Source of the DNA: Nitrospira sp.
Lineage (GTDB): Bacteria > Nitrospirota > Nitrospiria > Nitrospirales > Nitrospiraceae
Direction of reading: 5' to 3'
Assembly (NCBI GenBank): GCA_024998595.1
Contig: JACOEK010000001.1
Location: forward strand, 62,001 to 126,000
Length of the DNA stretch: 64,000 bases
Position numbers and translations under genes: made by a program. Positions 41,583 to 49,051 of this stretch are shown here, piece by piece. How positions within the stretch are numbered: position 1 is the stretch's first letter; each line of letters opens with the position of its first letter. Below the pieces are notes generated by a model. The model was given only the letters and a program-made list of their open reading frames with translations. It was not told the origin of the DNA and did not search any database.

Positions 41583-43061
41583 TTAGATCTTTGCGCTGAG
41601 ATAGAGGGATGCGCCGCGCCGGTTAATCAAGACCAGAACGGTTTGGCCTTTCGTGAGACTCGATGCGGCCCGATCGAACTCCTTCATGGATGTCACCGGC
41701 TTGCGGTTGATTTCTCGGATCACGTCACCGGGCATCAACCCCGCCCGCTCCGCGTCACTCTCGGGATCAACCGTGGTGACCACCACTCCTTGAATCTTTC
41801 CCTTGAGCCCGAGTTCTTGAGCCGTTTCCCGGTCAAGCTCCTGCACGGCGAGGCCCGCCAACGGTTGGTCCGATGGTGTGGCCTCCGTCCTCGCTACCTG
41901 TTGATTGTCCGGCAGTTCCGCAAGAGTGACGGCCAACTCCTTTTCCTGACCGTCCCGCAACACTTTCACCGTGGCTTTGCTGCCGACCGCGCTGCGGGTG
42001 ACGGCCCGCTGAAGCGTGACTGCATCTTCGACGGTGGTGCCCTGAAATGAGAGGATGACGTCGCCCTGTTTGATCCCGGCCTTATCCGCCGGGCCTTCTT
42101 CCTTCACATCGGTGACGACCGCGCCATTGCTGCCCTTCACGCCGAAGGATTTGGCCAACTCATGGTTCAGATCCTGAATGCCGATGCCAAGGTAACCGCG
42201 AACGACCTTTCCGGTCTTGATGAGGCTTTCGTAGATCGGCTTGCTCATGCCCGTCGAGACGGCGAAGCCGACGCCTTGATACCCGCCGGTTTGAGAAAAG
42301 ATGGCCGTATTGATGCCAATTAATTCCCCTTTGGTGTTCACGAGCGCGCCGCCGCTGTTACCCGGGTTGATGGCGGCATCCGTCTGAATGAAATCTTCAT
42401 ACTGCGTGATTCCCATGTGCCCGCGTCCCAGCGCGCTGACGATGCCCAGGGTCACCGTGGAATTGAGGCCGAACGGGTTTCCGATCGCCAGAACGTATTC
42501 ACCGACCTGAAGGCGGCTCGAGTCGCCCCAGGGAATGGTCGGGAGCTGCGCGCCGTCGATCTTGACCACGGCAATATCACTCTTCGGATCAGTGCCGACG
42601 ATCCGCCCTTTGAACTCTCGTTTATCAGGGAGCGTGACCGTGACTGTTTTCGCTCCTGCGATCACGTGGTTATTGGTCAGCACATATCCATCCTGAGTGA
42701 CGATCACGCCCGACCCTTGCCCACCGCCTCGATGCTCTCGCGGCTCCGATGGCGGACCGAACCGGCGCGGGCCGAATGGTGATCCAAAAAAGTCTTCCGT
42801 TTTCCCGCGCGGGCGGGCGTGGTCGGACACTTCCTCCGCCCCGCTGGTGGTGATGTTGACGACGGCTGGCGTGACCGTCTTGGCCACATCTGCGAATCCG
42901 GCAGCGGGTAAGGCGCCGGTCGGCGCAATCGGGCGTTCCTCTGCAGCTGGCGATGGGTTCGAGGCGTGAGACGGTGAGAGCGGGGTATAGCTCCAGATCA
43001 ACCCGGCGCTCAATGCGGCAATACCGGCTAGGACACTGACTGATTGTACGGGTCGTTTCAT
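41583..43061 (-). CDS. degP: DegP/HtrA-family periplasmic serine protease (Do-type)
   Basis: 492 residues. N-terminal signal anchor (VSVLAGIAALSAGLIWSY), a Gly/Pro/Arg-rich loop (about 80-115, LA-loop position), and the trypsin-like domain with H132 (TNNHVI), D162 (SDIAVVKI) and S236 (GNSGGAL). Two PDZ domains follow (about 285-375 and 395-485). It degrades or refolds misfolded envelope proteins. It lies 120 bp downstream of a sensor kinase in the same orientation, suggesting co-regulation or shared transcription in the manner of CpxAR/DegP. Confidence 0.95.
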   Translation of the reverse strand: MKRPVQSVSVLAGIAALSAGLIWSYTPLSPSHASNPSPAAEERPIAPTGALPAAGFADVAKTVTPAVVNITTSGAEEVSDHARPRGKTEDFFGSPFGPRRFGPPSEPREHRGGGQGSGVIVTQDGYVLTNNHVIAGAKTVTVTLPDKREFKGRIVGTDPKSDIAVVKIDGAQLPTIPWGDSSRLQVGEYVLAIGNPFGLNSTVTLGIVSALGRGHMGITQYEDFIQTDAAINPGNSGGALVNTKGELIGINTAIFSQTGGYQGVGFAVSTGMSKPIYESLIKTGKVVRGYLGIGIQDLNHELAKSFGVKGSNGAVVTDVKEEGPADKAGIKQGDVILSFQGTTVEDAVTLQRAVTRSAVGSKATVKVLRDGQEKELAVTLAELPDNQQVARTEATPSDQPLAGLAVQELDRETAQELGLKGKIQGVVVTTVDPESDAERAGLMPGDVIREINRKPVTSMKEFDRAASSLTKGQTVLVLINRRGASLYLSAKI

Positions 43062-43181: not shown

Positions 43182-44582
43182 TTAAGCTGCTGCTGCCAAC
43201 GGCAGAACGAGGGTGAAGGTCGAGCCGTTGCCGACTTCGCTCTGAACTTCGATGTGGCCATGGTGGGCTTCCGCAATCCAGGCGCAGATGGCCAGACCGA
43301 GGCCCGTCCCTTTTTTGGTATGGGCCCTGGCATCATCCGTGCGGAAGAAGCGGTCGAAGATCTGTTTGTGCGCGTCCTGAGGAATGCCGATTCCATAATC
43401 GCGCACGGAGAGCCGCGCGGTGGAGCCTTCCACCCGCAAGTCGATTTCGACCTTGCCGTGGGGATGGGAATATTTCACCGCATTGTCGACGATGTTGAGG
43501 ATGAGTTCCCGCAGCCGAAGTTCGTCGCCGCGCACGGTCGCCGGTTGTATCGTGCCCATGATGACATCCACTTCTCGTTCCTGGCCCAGGAGGCAGGCCT
43601 GGCGTTGAATGTCTTCCACTAGGGCTTCCAGGCGGACCGGCTCGCATTCTGTTTTGACCTGGCCCATATCCGCCCGCGAGAGGAACAGCAGCTCCTCCAC
43701 GATACGGGACATGCGGTCGATCTCCTCCAGATTGCTTTCCAGCACCGCGATGTAATCTTCGACGGGTCGGGGACGGCGTAACACTAACTCGCTCTCGCCC
43801 TTCATGACCGTCAGCGGGGTGCGCAGTTCGTGGGAGGCGTCGCTGCTGAACTGCCGGATTTGCGCGAAGGAGGTTTCCAGTCTCGCGATCATGTTGTTGA
43901 AGGTATCGGTCAGGCGCCCGATTTCGTCGGAGGAGCGTTCAGAATGCAGTCGTTGCGTCAGATCGCCCGCCGCGATCCGTTGCGCGGCGACGGTAATGGA
44001 ATCGACCGGGCGTAGGGCGCGTCCTGCCAGAAACCATCCTCCAACCAAGGACACGACCAGCGCAATCGGCGCCATGACGAGCAGGACGAGAAGGAAGCGC
44101 CGGAGGGTTTCCTCGACGCCTTCCAGGGTGGTGCCGACCTGGACGATATACAGTAATGAACCGCGGTAAATAATGGGCACGGACACCAGGCGCAGCGGCG
44201 GTTCGTTGGGGTATCGGGCGGATTCGAAGACGGTGCTGCCGGTAAAGGCGGCTTCCAGGGCCGGGCGGCTCAATGGAACGTCGTGCTGTCGGATATTCGG
44301 GGAGCGGATGGTGATGGTGCCGGTGGGGCTGAAGATCTGAAAGAATTTGTCGATACGGGTGAGTTCAGGAAATTGACTCAATAGGGCATCTTCATCGATG
44401 AGGGGAAGGAAGCCACGGGTCTCCAGCGAGCGCACGGCGGCCGAGGCGGTGTCCTGCAACGACTCATCGACCTGGTCGCGGAGGCCGCGGGCCGTGATGG
44501 TATAGAGCACCACGGAGAACGTCATCAGGATTAGGGCCAGCGCCGTTCCGTACCAGAGGGTGAGCCGGAGTCGAAGGGGCAT
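43182..44582 (-). CDS. Membrane sensor histidine kinase
   Basis: 466 residues. TM1 (about 8-30), a periplasmic domain of about 130 residues, TM2 (about 165-188), HAMP (about 189-240), the phosphoacceptor H251 in SSDASHELRTPLT, and the HATPase domain with N-box ELILNIVDNAVKYSH, G1 DYGIGIPQ and G2 GTGLGLAI. This is the layout of CusS/heavy-metal or envelope-stress kinases. Its ATG overlaps the regulator's stop (TGATG). The signal is unknown. Confidence 0.94.
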   Translation of the reverse strand: MPLRLRLTLWYGTALALILMTFSVVLYTITARGLRDQVDESLQDTASAAVRSLETRGFLPLIDEDALLSQFPELTRIDKFFQIFSPTGTITIRSPNIRQHDVPLSRPALEAAFTGSTVFESARYPNEPPLRLVSVPIIYRGSLLYIVQVGTTLEGVEETLRRFLLVLLVMAPIALVVSLVGGWFLAGRALRPVDSITVAAQRIAAGDLTQRLHSERSSDEIGRLTDTFNNMIARLETSFAQIRQFSSDASHELRTPLTVMKGESELVLRRPRPVEDYIAVLESNLEEIDRMSRIVEELLFLSRADMGQVKTECEPVRLEALVEDIQRQACLLGQEREVDVIMGTIQPATVRGDELRLRELILNIVDNAVKYSHPHGKVEIDLRVEGSTARLSVRDYGIGIPQDAHKQIFDRFFRTDDARAHTKKGTGLGLAICAWIAEAHHGHIEVQSEVGNGSTFTLVLPLAAAA

Positions 44583-45253
44583 CAGTCTACCTTGAGCATA
44601 TACCCACTCCCTCGTATCGTATGGATCAACTTTCGCGCCCGCCCGCGGTCGATCTTATTGCGTAAGTAATTGACGTAGACGTCGATGACGTTGGTGAACG
44701 TGTCGAAGTCTTGATTCCAGACATGGTCGGAAATCATGGGACGGGTCAACACCCGTCCGGCATGCCGCATAAAATATTCCAGAAGGGCATATTCTTTGAC
44801 CGTGAGATCGATACGCTGCCCTCCGCGGGTGACTTCCCGCGTGGCGGGATTGAGGATGAGATCATCGATCTGGAGCGTGCCGGAGGATTCGGCCGTGCCG
44901 CGCCGCAGGAGAGCCCGGACGCGGGCGAGCAATTCGTCGATGGCGAACGGTTTGGTGAGGTAGTCGTCCGCCCCCGCATCCAGTCCCTTGACGCGTTGAT
45001 CGACTTTCGACTGCGCTGTGAGGATCAAGACGGGCGTCTGAATTTTTTCCTTGCGGAGACGAGTCAGCACTTCCATGCCGGGGAGGCCGGGCAGCATGAG
45101 GTCGATCATGATGAGGTCGTAGCTGCCGCTCAGGCCCAGATCGAGACCCTGCGCGCCGTCCTCACAGAGGTCGACCGCATAACTTTCTTCTTCCAGGGCT
45201 CGCTTGATGAAGGAGCCCACCTTGGTTTCATCTTCAACGACAAGTACGCGCAT
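44582..45253 (-). CDS. OmpR/PhoB-family response regulator
   Basis: 223 residues. Receiver domain with acidic pair E7/D8, phosphoacceptor D51 (YDLIMIDLMLPGLPG), Thr in ILTAQSK and Lys in LTKPFAIDELLAR. The C-terminal winged helix (about 125-220) ends VRGSGYMLKVD, typical of OmpR family. First gene of regulator-kinase-DegP; the downstream protease is a likely target, by inference. Confidence 0.96.
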   Translation of the reverse strand: MRVLVVEDETKVGSFIKRALEEESYAVDLCEDGAQGLDLGLSGSYDLIMIDLMLPGLPGMEVLTRLRKEKIQTPVLILTAQSKVDQRVKGLDAGADDYLTKPFAIDELLARVRALLRRGTAESSGTLQIDDLILNPATREVTRGGQRIDLTVKEYALLEYFMRHAGRVLTRPMISDHVWNQDFDTFTNVIDVYVNYLRNKIDRGRARKLIHTIRGSGYMLKVD

Positions 45254-45321: not shown

Positions 45322-46464
45322 TCAGGGAAGGTCGATAGAATCCTGGCTGGAACGTTTGGCGGCCTGTAAGCGACAGAGTGTGCGAATGTCTTCCCAGTCT
45401 TCTCCGGGGAGCAGCTGGCGCGCGTCAGTCAGCGGTGTGCCGGCACGTGCGGTGAGCGTGGCGAGCCGCTGATCCATGTTCGGATGGGTGGAGAGAAAAT
45501 CAGGCGGTCCGACATGGTCCTGCTCGGCCTTCTGCAAGGTTTCGTAAAAGGCAATCATAGGGGCAGGATCGAGATGGGCGGCCTGCATCATGCGAAGGCC
45601 TTCGATATCCGCCTCCTCCTCGTGGATGCGACTATAGTGTAAAGATCCCATCGTCTGTGCACCTTGCAGCCCCCAGGCCAGTCCACCGGAGAGGTCTCCC
45701 GACACGGCGGTCAGCAGCAGCGTGCCGGCCGTCTGCTCCAGAATGGCTCTGGTGCTATGGCGTTGATAGACATGCTGGAGTTCATGCGCCAGCACTCCGG
45801 CGAGTTGCTCAGGATTGGTGGTCTGTTCCAGCAGCCCGCGAAGAACCACCACCTGGCCTCCGGGAGCGGCAAAGGCATTCATGGCGGGGTTGTCGACCAC
45901 TGAGAGCGTCACCCGGTAAGGAGAGGCCGGCTGAGTGGCTGCCAACGTTTGCACGACCTGGTCGATCTTCCGAAGTCGTTCCGGGTCCCGGCATTGCTGC
46001 GTCTCTGGGGCCAGATGTTCAACGATCTGCCGGCCAAGCGATTCCTCCCAGAGGGTCGGCACGAACGGCGTGGCCGCGGAGGCGAGACCCGGAATTCCCC
46101 AGCGGTAAAAGCCGATGAGCATGAGCACAATCCCCAGTCCCGCGCCCAGCGTCCAGGCCAGGCGCGCATTGCGCCATGAAGGATTGTGAAAATGTTGTGC
46201 AAGGGCGGGTGCCGCCGCATGGATGTCAGTCAGCAATGCGCGGCTGGCGACAACCACGGCCTCTGCCGGTTCAGGCCCGAACTCCAAGCGGACTGGCTCA
46301 CCGCGATATGTCCCTTGGGTTTGACGAATCTGGCCATACGGCCATTGCTTGCTGCTGCCGTCGGGCATGGCGATCTGCAAGGCGGCGGGGCTTATGGTGA
46401 GGGTAACGCGGTGTCGCGTGGCCGTGCGGCCGTCGAGGTAGTGCGCGGTTCGGTCGGTCGACAT
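45322..46464 (-). CDS. M48-family zinc metallopeptidase with N-terminal beta domain
   Basis: 380 residues. Residues 1-95 form a small domain with short beta strands (VTLTISPAALQIAMPDGS, then WPYGQIRQTQG). A membrane helix at about 101-122 separates it from the peptidase domain. The zinc site is H227-E228-x-x-H231 (LAHELQHVYQRH) with the third ligand in HEEEADIEGLR (281-290). M48 peptidases of this kind (BepA, LoiP) act on outer-membrane proteins. It is the last gene of the zinc-ribbon cassette, two bases after the DUF898 gene. Confidence 0.9.
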   Translation of the reverse strand: MSTDRTAHYLDGRTATRHRVTLTISPAALQIAMPDGSSKQWPYGQIRQTQGTYRGEPVRLEFGPEPAEAVVVASRALLTDIHAAAPALAQHFHNPSWRNARLAWTLGAGLGIVLMLIGFYRWGIPGLASAATPFVPTLWEESLGRQIVEHLAPETQQCRDPERLRKIDQVVQTLAATQPASPYRVTLSVVDNPAMNAFAAPGGQVVVLRGLLEQTTNPEQLAGVLAHELQHVYQRHSTRAILEQTAGTLLLTAVSGDLSGGLAWGLQGAQTMGSLHYSRIHEEEADIEGLRMMQAAHLDPAPMIAFYETLQKAEQDHVGPPDFLSTHPNMDQRLATLTARAGTPLTDARQLLPGEDWEDIRTLCRLQAAKRSSQDSIDLP

Positions 46465-46466
46465 GA

Positions 46467-47744
46467 TTACGAATCCATGTCGAAGCCGGTGTCGAGGAGG
46501 TTCGACAGCCCTTCGCCGGTGACCGACGCGTCGGTGGTGTCTTGCAGCACGCGATCGAGATCAACTGGTCCTTGCAACGACAGCGTGCCGATAAAAAAAC
46601 GGGCATTGCGTACCGTGACCCAGGGCCAGGCCCATCCCAATGTCGTCACGAGGAGCCCGAGATTGCCCAGGTACAGGGTGAACAGTCGTTGCCAGGTGAT
46701 GTCGGAGGAGAACCGGGCTTCCCCGAAGGACGTGTGATTCCAGAAGTATCGCTGTTTTTGTCCCAGGAGCCAGATCCACAAGGGGCCGAGCACAAAGGGC
46801 ATCAACAGCAACGTCAGTCCTGCATTCGCCAATTGTAATGCGAGGGCGAGCCCGCACAGGCCCAGGACGGCATAGGTGGCAAACAGGGTCACTACGAAGG
46901 GGATCATCACCCCGGATCCGTGGCCGGTAAAACGGAATCGCTGGTTGCCGAAATAGGTGTGGGAGTGGAGAAACGCCTGCCGCTGGGTTTGAAAATAGGG
47001 ATAGTAGGTGCCCAGTGTCAGGACCGTGAACAACCATCCCCGAAAATACAGTTTCAAGAAATCCGCGGTGCGTCCTCGAAATGAGAAACGGATGCCCCGC
47101 CACGAGGTGCGGGTGCATCGATACCGGCGCGCGTTCACGATCGCGACGGGGACGTAGAGGAACAGCACCAGGCCGGCCAGCGCTTGCGACAATCCATCGA
47201 TCCACGAGGGAAGGTCCAGAAACGTGTGCGCGGCGGTCAGGAAAAAATAGGGGATGCCGAATATCAACATGGCCTTCAGAAACCCCTGATAGAGTTCCTT
47301 TCCGGTGCCGTGATACACGAACCGGTCGCCTGCGAAAGACGTTTGGCTGAACAGGTACCGGCGGATCTTGGCCTTGGCCCAGAAGTGATACCCGCCCAAA
47401 GTCGCCAGCGTGAGGCAGACGTTCACGACATGCATGCCTAACAGGGTCCCGCCCATTCCATGAAAGGACGCGCGTATGGACGGGGGCATGGACGCCGTCG
47501 CGTCGGGTGTGGATGAGGGATCGGGAACGGAGGACAGCCTGTCCTGCTGGTTCGGCCAGTCTTGCCCGGGGTCTGCTGGTACCGTCTCCACCACCGCGAA
47601 CCGTGCGCCGCATGTCGGGCAGCTGCTGCGAGACGCGGGCGACAATCGCTCCAGGGCGTGGACTCGATAGTGGCTGAGGCAACGGTGACAGGTGACCCGC
47701 GCGGCGCTCGTCTCGTCATGCTGCGCCGCAGTGGTCATGATCAA
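46467..47744 (-). CDS. DUF898 (YjgN-like) membrane protein with N-terminal zinc ribbon
   Basis: 425 residues. Zinc ribbon with C19, C22, C42 and C45. After a Pro/Ser linker (50-90) come DUF898 units, each with aromatic motifs and membrane helices: GGYHFWAKAKIRRYLFSQ, LGTYYPYFQTQRQAFL and LGQKQRYFWNHTSFG precede a hydrophobic segment or follow it, giving about 8 membrane helices. Function is unknown in any organism I can name; an acyl-transfer or lipid role has not been shown. ATGA overlap with the ankyrin gene upstream and a 2-bp gap to the M48 gene downstream. Confidence 0.87.
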   Translation of the reverse strand: MIMTTAAQHDETSAARVTCHRCLSHYRVHALERLSPASRSSCPTCGARFAVVETVPADPGQDWPNQQDRLSSVPDPSSTPDATASMPPSIRASFHGMGGTLLGMHVVNVCLTLATLGGYHFWAKAKIRRYLFSQTSFAGDRFVYHGTGKELYQGFLKAMLIFGIPYFFLTAAHTFLDLPSWIDGLSQALAGLVLFLYVPVAIVNARRYRCTRTSWRGIRFSFRGRTADFLKLYFRGWLFTVLTLGTYYPYFQTQRQAFLHSHTYFGNQRFRFTGHGSGVMIPFVVTLFATYAVLGLCGLALALQLANAGLTLLLMPFVLGPLWIWLLGQKQRYFWNHTSFGEARFSSDITWQRLFTLYLGNLGLLVTTLGWAWPWVTVRNARFFIGTLSLQGPVDLDRVLQDTTDASVTGEGLSNLLDTGFDMDS

Positions 47745-49051
47745 CAGGCGGCCTGATGGCCCAAGGTACAGGCTTGTTGCAGCCCTTGCAGGAACCCTGC
47801 GCTATCGCCTTTTCCCCGCTTGACGATGGCGCGTTCGAAATAGGCTCGACCATGTTGTGGTTGGTGTATGAGGAACTGGTCCCAGAGGTTCAGGGCCTGG
47901 TCCCACTGCCCGCGCATGGTGTATACGGACGCGGCGGCGCTATACGCATTGATGTAGGTCGGATTCAGGCGGATGGTGGCGTGAAAGGCGATGAGCGCCT
48001 CGTCAGGCGAGTCCTTGTGGAGCAAGGCGGTTCCGCGTCCGTAATAGGATTCGTAGTCGTCGGGGTCGAGGTTCAGCGCCTCAGCATAGGCGAAGAGCGC
48101 GTTGTCGCTCTGGCCGTTTTTTTGGAATGCGATCCCCTGCGCGCGTCGGGCCTTGGCTTCAGAAAACTCTCTGCCTCCATGTTCGCGCAGCAGAGCGACC
48201 AGTTCTTGATCCTCGTCATGTTGAGCGATCTCCAGCGGGGTATCGCCGTGACTCTTCTGATTCACCGGAATGCCCCCTTCAAGAAGTCTCTGCGCGGCGG
48301 CCAGGTGCCCTCGCCGGACGGCCCGATGCAGCGCCGAATCACCAGAGATGGAGGTCGCTCTGATGTCGGCCCCGTTGATAAGGAGCGCCTCAATGGTGTC
48401 GGCATGGCCCTGCTCAGCTGCGACCAGTAGCGGCGTATAGCCCTGTTTCCCCTTCGCATTGGGGTTTGCTCCGTGTTGTACCAGCAGTGGCACCAGAGCG
48501 GTGTGCCCTCGCTTGGCGGCTTCAAGGAGCGCTGTCCGCCCCTGGCCGTTGCGTTGGTCCACCACCTGTCCGTCCGCCAGGAGAGAGGCCGCAGCGGAAA
48601 GGTCTCCCCGCGCCGCCGCAAAATGGAGCGGCGTCCATCCATTGGCTTTCAAAATGAATGGCGAGAGCACCAAGCCATCGATATCGTAAGGATCATGGGT
48701 GGTTTTGATTTGTCCGAGCATCCAGTAGGTCATTCCCGACAACAACACATAATTCAACACACAGGCCAGGACAGCCACGGCGATTCCTGTGAGCCGGCGC
48801 GAGAGATCGATCGGAGGATCGCATGCCGACGATCGGTTGATTATGTCTTCATCGGTTGTCCGCGCCCCCGGGTTGAGGACTAGGAGGTTGGCATGGCAGG
48901 AAGGGCAGGCACATTGGTGCAACGGAAGCCCGGCCACGGGTGCGCAGGAGGTGATCGCCTGGCAGAAGGGACAAACTGCGGTTTGTGCAGCGTTCGCCGG
49001 TGTCAGCGGAGGGGATGCAGATATGGCCGCGCCTGGGTGAACGGTAGTCAT
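47741..49051 (-). CDS. Membrane protein with zinc ribbon, ankyrin and TPR repeats
   Basis: 436 residues. Zinc ribbon with C27, C30, C49 and C52 (CPFC ... CACPSC), one membrane helix at about 98-118 (IAVAVLACVLNYVLLSG), then ankyrin repeats from about 140 to 285 (GWTPLHFAAARGDLSAAASLL, GRTALLEAAKRGHTALVPLLV, GYTPLLVAAEQGHADTIEALL and others) and TPR-type repeats to the end (ALFAYAEALNLDPDDYESYYGRG). First gene of the three-gene cassette. Likely a membrane-tethered scaffold; which side of the membrane the repeats face is unclear. Confidence 0.85.
   Translation of the reverse strand: MTTVHPGAAISASPPLTPANAAQTAVCPFCQAITSCAPVAGLPLHQCACPSCHANLLVLNPGARTTDEDIINRSSACDPPIDLSRRLTGIAVAVLACVLNYVLLSGMTYWMLGQIKTTHDPYDIDGLVLSPFILKANGWTPLHFAAARGDLSAAASLLADGQVVDQRNGQGRTALLEAAKRGHTALVPLLVQHGANPNAKGKQGYTPLLVAAEQGHADTIEALLINGADIRATSISGDSALHRAVRRGHLAAAQRLLEGGIPVNQKSHGDTPLEIAQHDEDQELVALLREHGGREFSEAKARRAQGIAFQKNGQSDNALFAYAEALNLDPDDYESYYGRGTALLHKDSPDEALIAFHATIRLNPTYINAYSAAASVYTMRGQWDQALNLWDQFLIHQPQHGRAYFERAIVKRGKGDSAGFLQGLQQACTLGHQAAC

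Follow-up and report, generated by a model that had tools for sequence, protein, structure and literature searches.

A DUF898 membrane protein and a PH-like M48 metallopeptidase as genomic partners in Nitrospira, with an exchangeable zinc-ribbon gene beside them

The gene unit and its products

The window, by which we mean the whole stretch of 64,000 nucleotides that was analysed, comes from Nitrospira sp. (contig C6 of the 4.2-Mb genome G000) and carries on its minus strand three genes with near-zero spacing. They encode, in reading order, a protein that combines a zinc ribbon, a transmembrane (TM) helix, ankyrin repeats and TPR repeats, a DUF898 membrane protein that begins with a zinc ribbon, and an M48 metallopeptidase that is preceded by a DUF7092 domain and a TM helix (Table 1). 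Open reading frames (ORFs) and Pfam domains place all three where a sequence-only reading of the window had put them. The association of DUF898 with M48 is close to obligate and far stronger than that reading had proposed. The main new result is that the ankyrin gene fills a conserved slot, of which the zinc ribbon and the TM helix form the constant part; it is called the slot gene below.

The packing of the genes had been described as a 4-bp overlap followed by a 2-bp gap. The gap and the tight spacing stand, but the overlap probably does not. A mechanical call of the DUF898 gene (46467-47744) starts at TTG 47744, which adds six bases. Since the relatives in the genus alignment begin at the equivalent Met, the start is probably ATG 47738, and there would therefore be 2-bp gaps at both junctions. 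All three genes are found in the same order in each of the 28 genus loci that have DUF898, so that the triplet is not a matter of chance. The sole genome of the genus without DUF898 (G016, locus L185) has a frameshifted remnant of the ankyrin gene close to a contig end, which reflects either joint decay or an assembly artefact.

The repeats of the slot protein are well matched by Pfam (Ank_2, E 3e-42; TPR_2, E 2e-13), and the residues RR on the N-terminal side of its TM helix suggest an orientation with the ribbon inside and the repeats outside. The DUF898 protein matches PF05987 with E 1e-85 (288 bits versus a cut-off of 28); a sequence search of the PDB found no solved relative of it, and a search of viral contigs found no relatives. 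The N-terminal zinc ribbon that the sequence-only reading had seen in both proteins holds up well. Since no Pfam zinc-ribbon model scores above its cut-off in either protein, the assignment is based on the conserved cysteines and on the models: the eight ribbon cysteines, four in each protein, are invariant across the 14 genus sequences compared, and AlphaFold renders both ribbons as four-stranded. Zinc ribbons of several types are also found at the N-terminus of other DUF898 proteins, next to GYF_2 domains (by Pfam in L059 and L063, by eye in L066), NHL-like beta-propeller repeats (L064) and a TPR-like module (L070, by eye).

At its other end the DUF898 protein carries a short conserved tail. 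The motif S-A-x-G-[ED]-[EA]-x-x-[DE]-[FL]-[FL]-D-[IFL]-[DE]-[ILV]-[GSA]-[LIF], at a near-constant spacing to the stop codon, ends nearly all M48-paired DUF898s, and the window protein itself ends in the sequence given in Table 1. The E. coli protein YjgN, which has no DUF7092 partner, lacks the tail and has a different C-terminus.

The product of the third gene matches Peptidase_M48 (PF01435, E 6e-31, 108 bits versus a cut-off of 20.3) and DUF7092 (PF23368, E 8e-9, 36.4 bits versus a cut-off of 24.5). The extra beta domain and TM helix that had been noticed ahead of the peptidase correspond to DUF7092, PH-like in the model, and to one hydrophobic segment. The protein looks catalytically intact, because the zinc-binding HELQH (227-231), the third zinc ligand E282 (in EEEAD) and the plug HPNMDQR (327-333) are all present; HExxH, the third-ligand Glu and the HPx4R plug are conserved among the aligned relatives. 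In addition, a cysteine before the NAxA motif and another after the HPx4R plug co-vary: both are present in 40 proteins, neither in 88, and nine are discordant (kinship ignored). In the window protein the pair is C158/C364, which would fit a disulfide and hence an oxidising compartment.

Table 1. Features of the locus, numbered along the window (aa, amino acids)
Feature	Position	Strand	Basis
Slot gene, zinc ribbon-TM-ankyrin-TPR, 436 aa	47741..49051	-	ORF and Pfam
Slot protein, N-terminal zinc ribbon, aa 25-60 (C27, C30, C49, C52)	48872..48979	-	Invariant cysteines; four strands in model
Slot protein, predicted TM helix, about aa 84-106	48734..48802	-	Hydropathy; helix 84-118 in model
Slot protein, ankyrin repeats, about aa 137-293	48173..48643	-	Pfam
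Slot protein, TPR repeats, about aa 299-410	47822..48157	-	Pfam
DUF898 (YjgN-type) membrane protein gene	46467..47738	-	Pfam PF05987; start by genus alignment
DUF898, N-terminal zinc ribbon, CxxC at aa 17 and 40 (ATG numbering)	47589..47699	-	Invariant in genus; co-occurs with slot gene
DUF898, membrane domain, repeated helix pairs and beta hairpins	46500..47474	-	Pfam and models
DUF898, conserved C-terminal tail (SVTGEGLSNLLDTGFDMDS)	46470..46526	-	Motif in DUF898s of several phyla
DUF7092-TM-M48 metallopeptidase gene, 380 aa	45322..46464	-	Pfam
Protease, DUF7092 domain, aa 6-63, predicted PH-like fold	46276..46449	-	PF23368; fold search of homologous region
Protease, single predicted TM helix, about aa 102-124	46093..46161	-	Hydropathy; helix 456-488 in homologous model
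Protease, Peptidase M48 domain, aa 163-340	45445..45978	-	Pfam and alignment
OmpR-type response regulator, 68 bp past protease gene	44582..45253	-	Pfam; synteny in 13/13 genus loci
HAMP histidine kinase	43182..44582	-	Pfam and synteny
HtrA-type serine protease with PDZ domains	41583..43061	-	Pfam and synteny

Distribution of the pair and of the slot gene

Linkage was assessed in 295 genomes of the phylum and in 229 gammaproteobacterial genomes, with DUF7092 counted above the cut-off. All 48 copies of DUF7092 in the phylum lie directly 3' of a DUF898 gene, on the same strand and 26-316 bp away, and the same position and strand were found for all 22 gammaproteobacterial copies (70 of 70 together); the chance of such an adjacency is about 1e-4 for one genome. 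Far from being rare, the adjacency of M48 and DUF898 was thus seen at nearly all sampled loci. Counted from the side of DUF898, and with weak DUF7092 copies read by eye, the protease stands beside 50 of the 51 places in the phylum and 23 of the 26 in the gammaproteobacteria. The 51st place of the phylum (L174:4813-5706 in G294) is a remnant, a 297-aa frame in which an in-frame internal deletion has fused DUF898 with M48. The gammaproteobacterium G331 (L168-L171) has four copies of DUF898, three of them with an M48 partner; the copy at L171 is split over two frames, and one copy carries a charged N-terminal extension of about 400 aa.

When 85,000 species genomes were scanned by pattern, which favours DUF898s close to the query, 80 DUF898 loci were found, 77 of them with room for the neighbouring gene. 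An M48 gene adjoins 76 of these by profile, and in the 77th an ORF with HExxH stands in its place; the genes overlap by 4 bp at 35 of the 77 junctions. The loci span Nitrospirota, Pseudomonadota, the former Deltaproteobacteria, Verrucomicrobiota, Campylobacterota, Deinococcota and Acidobacteriota. The pair of DUF898 and DUF7092-M48 recurs in at least six phyla, and its flanking genes differ between them. Plasmid records of Azoarcus, Sinorhizobium, Roseinatronobacter and Magnetococcus name the two genes one by one as 'YjgN family protein' and 'M48 family metallopeptidase'; this is the same pair as in the window, but the ribbon-bearing third gene is absent there. On the 40-kb Magnetococcus plasmid MAGMO_p1 (L082) the pair lies close to secD and secF.

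The slot gene was followed with a profile of the first 112 residues of the ankyrin protein (ribbon and TM helix) in 147 genomes of the family. Outside the genus the profile matched only genes directly upstream of DUF898 in genomes of the same family, with full matches in 10 genomes, all adjoining DUF898. The ribbon-TM part is homologous and constant across the variants, and the periplasmic part behind it takes several forms: ankyrin-TPR in the window genus, g144 and g146, a Coa1-like domain with or without a SnoaL-like domain in g24 and g6 (and a weak match in g148), and essentially nothing in g21 and G610. A restriction of the ankyrin gene to one genus was rejected, given its presence in g144 and g146. 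The ankyrin-TPR scaffold, which the sequence-only reading had taken for a core part of the unit, is instead one variant of an exchangeable slot, found in the window genus and two others, and in most bacteria the pair occurs without it.

The ribbons are not only conserved within the genus; the two-CxxC ribbon of DUF898 is also inherited together with the slot gene. Outside the genus both are present in 10 genomes and both are absent in four that do have DUF898 (G313, G108, G561 and G569), with no discordant genome in either direction (Fisher p 0.001, not corrected for phylogeny). Genus g6 holds both states. Such a pattern would be expected if the two ribbons act together. Weak ribbon matches in G231 and G599 were rejected as slot genes, being J-domain-like proteins. 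The J-domain-like proteins at L195:3688-4923 and L196:4208-5089 show a half-ribbon, CPSCHANL, that resembles the one of the slot gene.

Predicted structure and known relatives

Both partners were modelled as one chain from a Methylomonas gene pair that is naturally in frame, the intervening stop codon being read as glycine, with an alignment of 15 rows for the fusion, the target among them, and 108 rows for one protein only. In AlphaFold this fusion folds as a confident unit, with a mean predicted local distance difference test (pLDDT) of 88.7 and a predicted template modelling score (pTM) of 0.84 over 702 aa. DUF898 and M48 are confidently placed together in the model, with an extensive interface in a seemingly fixed arrangement, because two domains of equal size lacking one would be expected to have a much lower pTM.

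The DUF7092 region of the model (363-446) matched dozens of PH, PTB and FERM-F3 chains (Z 7-8.2, root-mean-square deviation (rmsd) 2.5-4 Å), a result that belongs to the modelled homologue and not to the window protein itself. The peptidase part is BepA/3c37-like (Z ~16). ZMPSTE24 and Ste24 align over the peptidase and into the DUF898 helices (Z 9.4-11.4, 234-247 residues), a match that is suggestive only, as its rmsd of 6-7 Å is too high for calling a shared membrane fold.

With regard to topology, both ends of DUF898 should be cytosolic, because its helices are paired in the model, Arg and Lys abound in the hairpins, and the modules that extend the N-terminus of DUF898s (zinc ribbons, GYF_2, TPR-like) are of kinds that occur in the cytosol. 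The catalytic part of the M48 protein should be periplasmic, given that a folded domain precedes the single TM helix and that there is no signal peptide.

Membrane-associated M48 proteases with accessory proteins are a known kind; the papers searched do not describe the obligate DUF898 partner, nor the PH-like domain, nor a slot that is anchored by a ribbon and can be swapped. Our literature search found no paper describing the DUF898-M48 pair, those naming DUF898 not covering it, and no paper on DUF7092. One of the nearest systems is BepA, which is of the same M48 subtype and, together with 3c37, is the best solved relative of the window protease. It shares HExxH, the Glu ligand and the HPx4R plug, which regulates BepA (PMC7950410), as well as the association of protease and TPR repeats. 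However, BepA is a single soluble periplasmic chain, whereas the window protease is predicted to be membrane-anchored, has a PH-like N-terminal domain and lacks the TPR, which here resides on the separate ankyrin-TPR protein; the NCBIfam equivalog for BepA gives 103 of 570 bits, below its cut-off. Ste24/ZMPSTE24 likewise catalyses at the membrane, as the window protein would, but is one chain with its own multi-pass membrane barrel, whereas the window protease has a single hydrophobic segment and the polytopic part is a separate protein. HtpX is a membrane-anchored bacterial M48 protease, in E. coli under an envelope two-component system according to the papers cited in PMC11078701, but its active site is cytosolic and it has neither DUF7092 nor a DUF898 partner; its NCBIfam equivalogs give at most 33 bits against cut-offs of at least 245. 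YjgN of E. coli shares the family PF05987 with the window protein, but has no M48 neighbour, no DUF7092 in its genome, no conserved tail and no zinc ribbon.

A few reports touch on the two families. In Enterococcus faecalis, a mutant in a 101-aa DUF898/DUF4234 protein has been reported to form little biofilm. One paper uses 'DUF898' for the urate oxidase PuuD, probably by a slip for another DUF number. The zinc protease PA0277 of P. aeruginosa, which is controlled by RsmA and by the stringent response, may be a relative.

A candidate envelope protease and its alternatives

The reading that we prefer is that of an obligate envelope protease of DUF898 and PH-M48, with the slot protein as its ribbon-docked periplasmic adaptor. 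DUF898 would be the polytopic partner that exposes its zinc ribbon, beta hairpins and conserved C-terminal tail on the cytosolic face, and the M48 subunit would consist of the PH-like DUF7092 in the cytosol, one TM helix and a zinc-protease domain in the periplasm. In this bacterial family the third gene would add an anchor of zinc ribbon and TM helix; its cytosolic ribbon would dock on the complex, and its exchangeable periplasmic domain, ankyrin-TPR in this case, would serve to recruit substrates or clients. The complex would probably serve the quality control of membrane or periplasmic proteins, and perhaps acts together with the adjacent two-component system and HtrA. We consider that the DUF898 and PH-M48 proteins are very probably subunits of one membrane protease and that there is about an even chance for the adaptor role of the slot protein; the statement as a whole, with the weight on the core pair, seems to us reasonably probable. 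Of the membrane complex around an envelope protease that had been suggested from the sequence, most is thus retained, in view of the adjacency, the conserved and co-inherited ribbons and the confident fused model, but the ankyrin-TPR protein is no longer part of its core. That reading had not included the C-terminal tail of DUF898, the exchange of slot domains or the genes for the two-component system and HtrA beyond the unit.

Several observations weigh against this reading. The fusion tethers the two chains. The pTM of 0.47 for an ankyrin-DUF898 fusion treated in the same way, which leaves a contact between these two proteins unsupported, is not a clean control for the value of 0.84, since it comes from a shallower, less diverse alignment and from more modular proteins. 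In the DUF898-M48 model the conserved tail comes out disordered (pLDDT < 50). In some relatives the charges beside the TM helix of the M48 protein give a mixed picture and make the positive-inside analysis ambiguous, which leaves the folded N-terminal domain and the cysteine pair as the grounds for a periplasmic placement. In the gammaproteobacteria, lone DUF898s in G431 and G520 and the extra copy in G331 have no adjacent M48, and the unpaired DUF898 of G431 retains the tail, which makes the correlation of tail and M48 imperfect. Finally, the genes from the response regulator onward may form a separate transcript, because the 68-bp gap before it contains a promoter-like site with an extended -10 (45304-45277; ATCACA-16-TATAAT, with TG ahead).

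The same features can be read more boldly, with DUF898 as the polytopic gate of the PH-M48 protease and its C-terminal peptide docking on DUF7092, in the way short peptides do on PTB or FERM-F3 domains. The protease would then be retargeted between lineages by interchangeable parts, namely cytosolic sensors on DUF898 (zinc ribbon, GYF, TPR) and periplasmic adaptors on the ribbon-docked third subunit. We regard this elaboration as unlikely, and docking of the tail on DUF7092 is not claimed, the tail being disordered in the fusion model.

The main alternative is that DUF898 is not a subunit but a dedicated substrate of the M48 protein, for instance a transporter or a membrane-stress sensor, with the protease setting its activity or turnover, perhaps via the tail. 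A substrate that is processed or degraded would fit an obligate linkage and a conserved, disordered tail equally well, and E. coli retains a DUF898 with neither the partner protease nor the tail. However, the arrangement in the high-confidence fused model is extensive and fixed, not transient, and if M48 is periplasmic, a cytosolic tail would be beyond the reach of its active site; we therefore think it doubtful that DUF898 is a substrate.

Less probable still is that the three genes form one envelope stress-response locus with the response regulator, the kinase and HtrA, in which the slot protein would act as a kinase-tuning sensor instead of an adaptor of the protease. The order FAD protein, slot gene, DUF898, M48, regulator, kinase and HtrA, on one strand from the slot gene on, is found in all 13 genus loci, and much of this order persists in g144, g146, g148, g24, g21 and G610. 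The linkage of an M48 gene with an OmpR-type regulator, a HAMP kinase and HtrA resembles the Cpx system, which in E. coli controls DegP and the M48 protease HtpX, as far as can be told from the papers in the reference list of PMC11078701. Nevertheless, such genes were not seen beside most DUF898-M48 pairs of other phyla, and in g6 (L073, L191) the regulator and kinase genes are weaker matches in convergent orientation. Moreover, the promoter-like site separates the two units, and the slot ribbons track the DUF898 ribbons even in g6 genomes without this two-component arrangement.

That the linkage reflects merely the shared expression of two housekeeping membrane proteins that make no contact, with the ankyrin gene as a lineage passenger, would suit a region that is syntenic throughout in the genus, the unrelated FAD protein and GcvP included, but is very improbable in view of a pair that persists across phyla among different neighbours, the co-inherited ribbons, the slot domains swapped behind a constant ribbon-TM part, the pTM of the fused model, and locus L188, where the gene order is shuffled and the three genes are still together.

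DUF898 is widespread and has no established function. Its all but obligate link with a single M48 subtype across phyla makes it a protease partner that can be tested, and accounts for the fact that the orphan copy of E. coli gives no clue to its function. The ribbon cysteines, the tail and the catalytic residues are each open to single-site tests. If the subunit reading with its ribbon-docked adaptor is true, the swappable slot protein would be a natural and simple means by which an envelope protease is retargeted, and the two zinc ribbons would act as its docking code.

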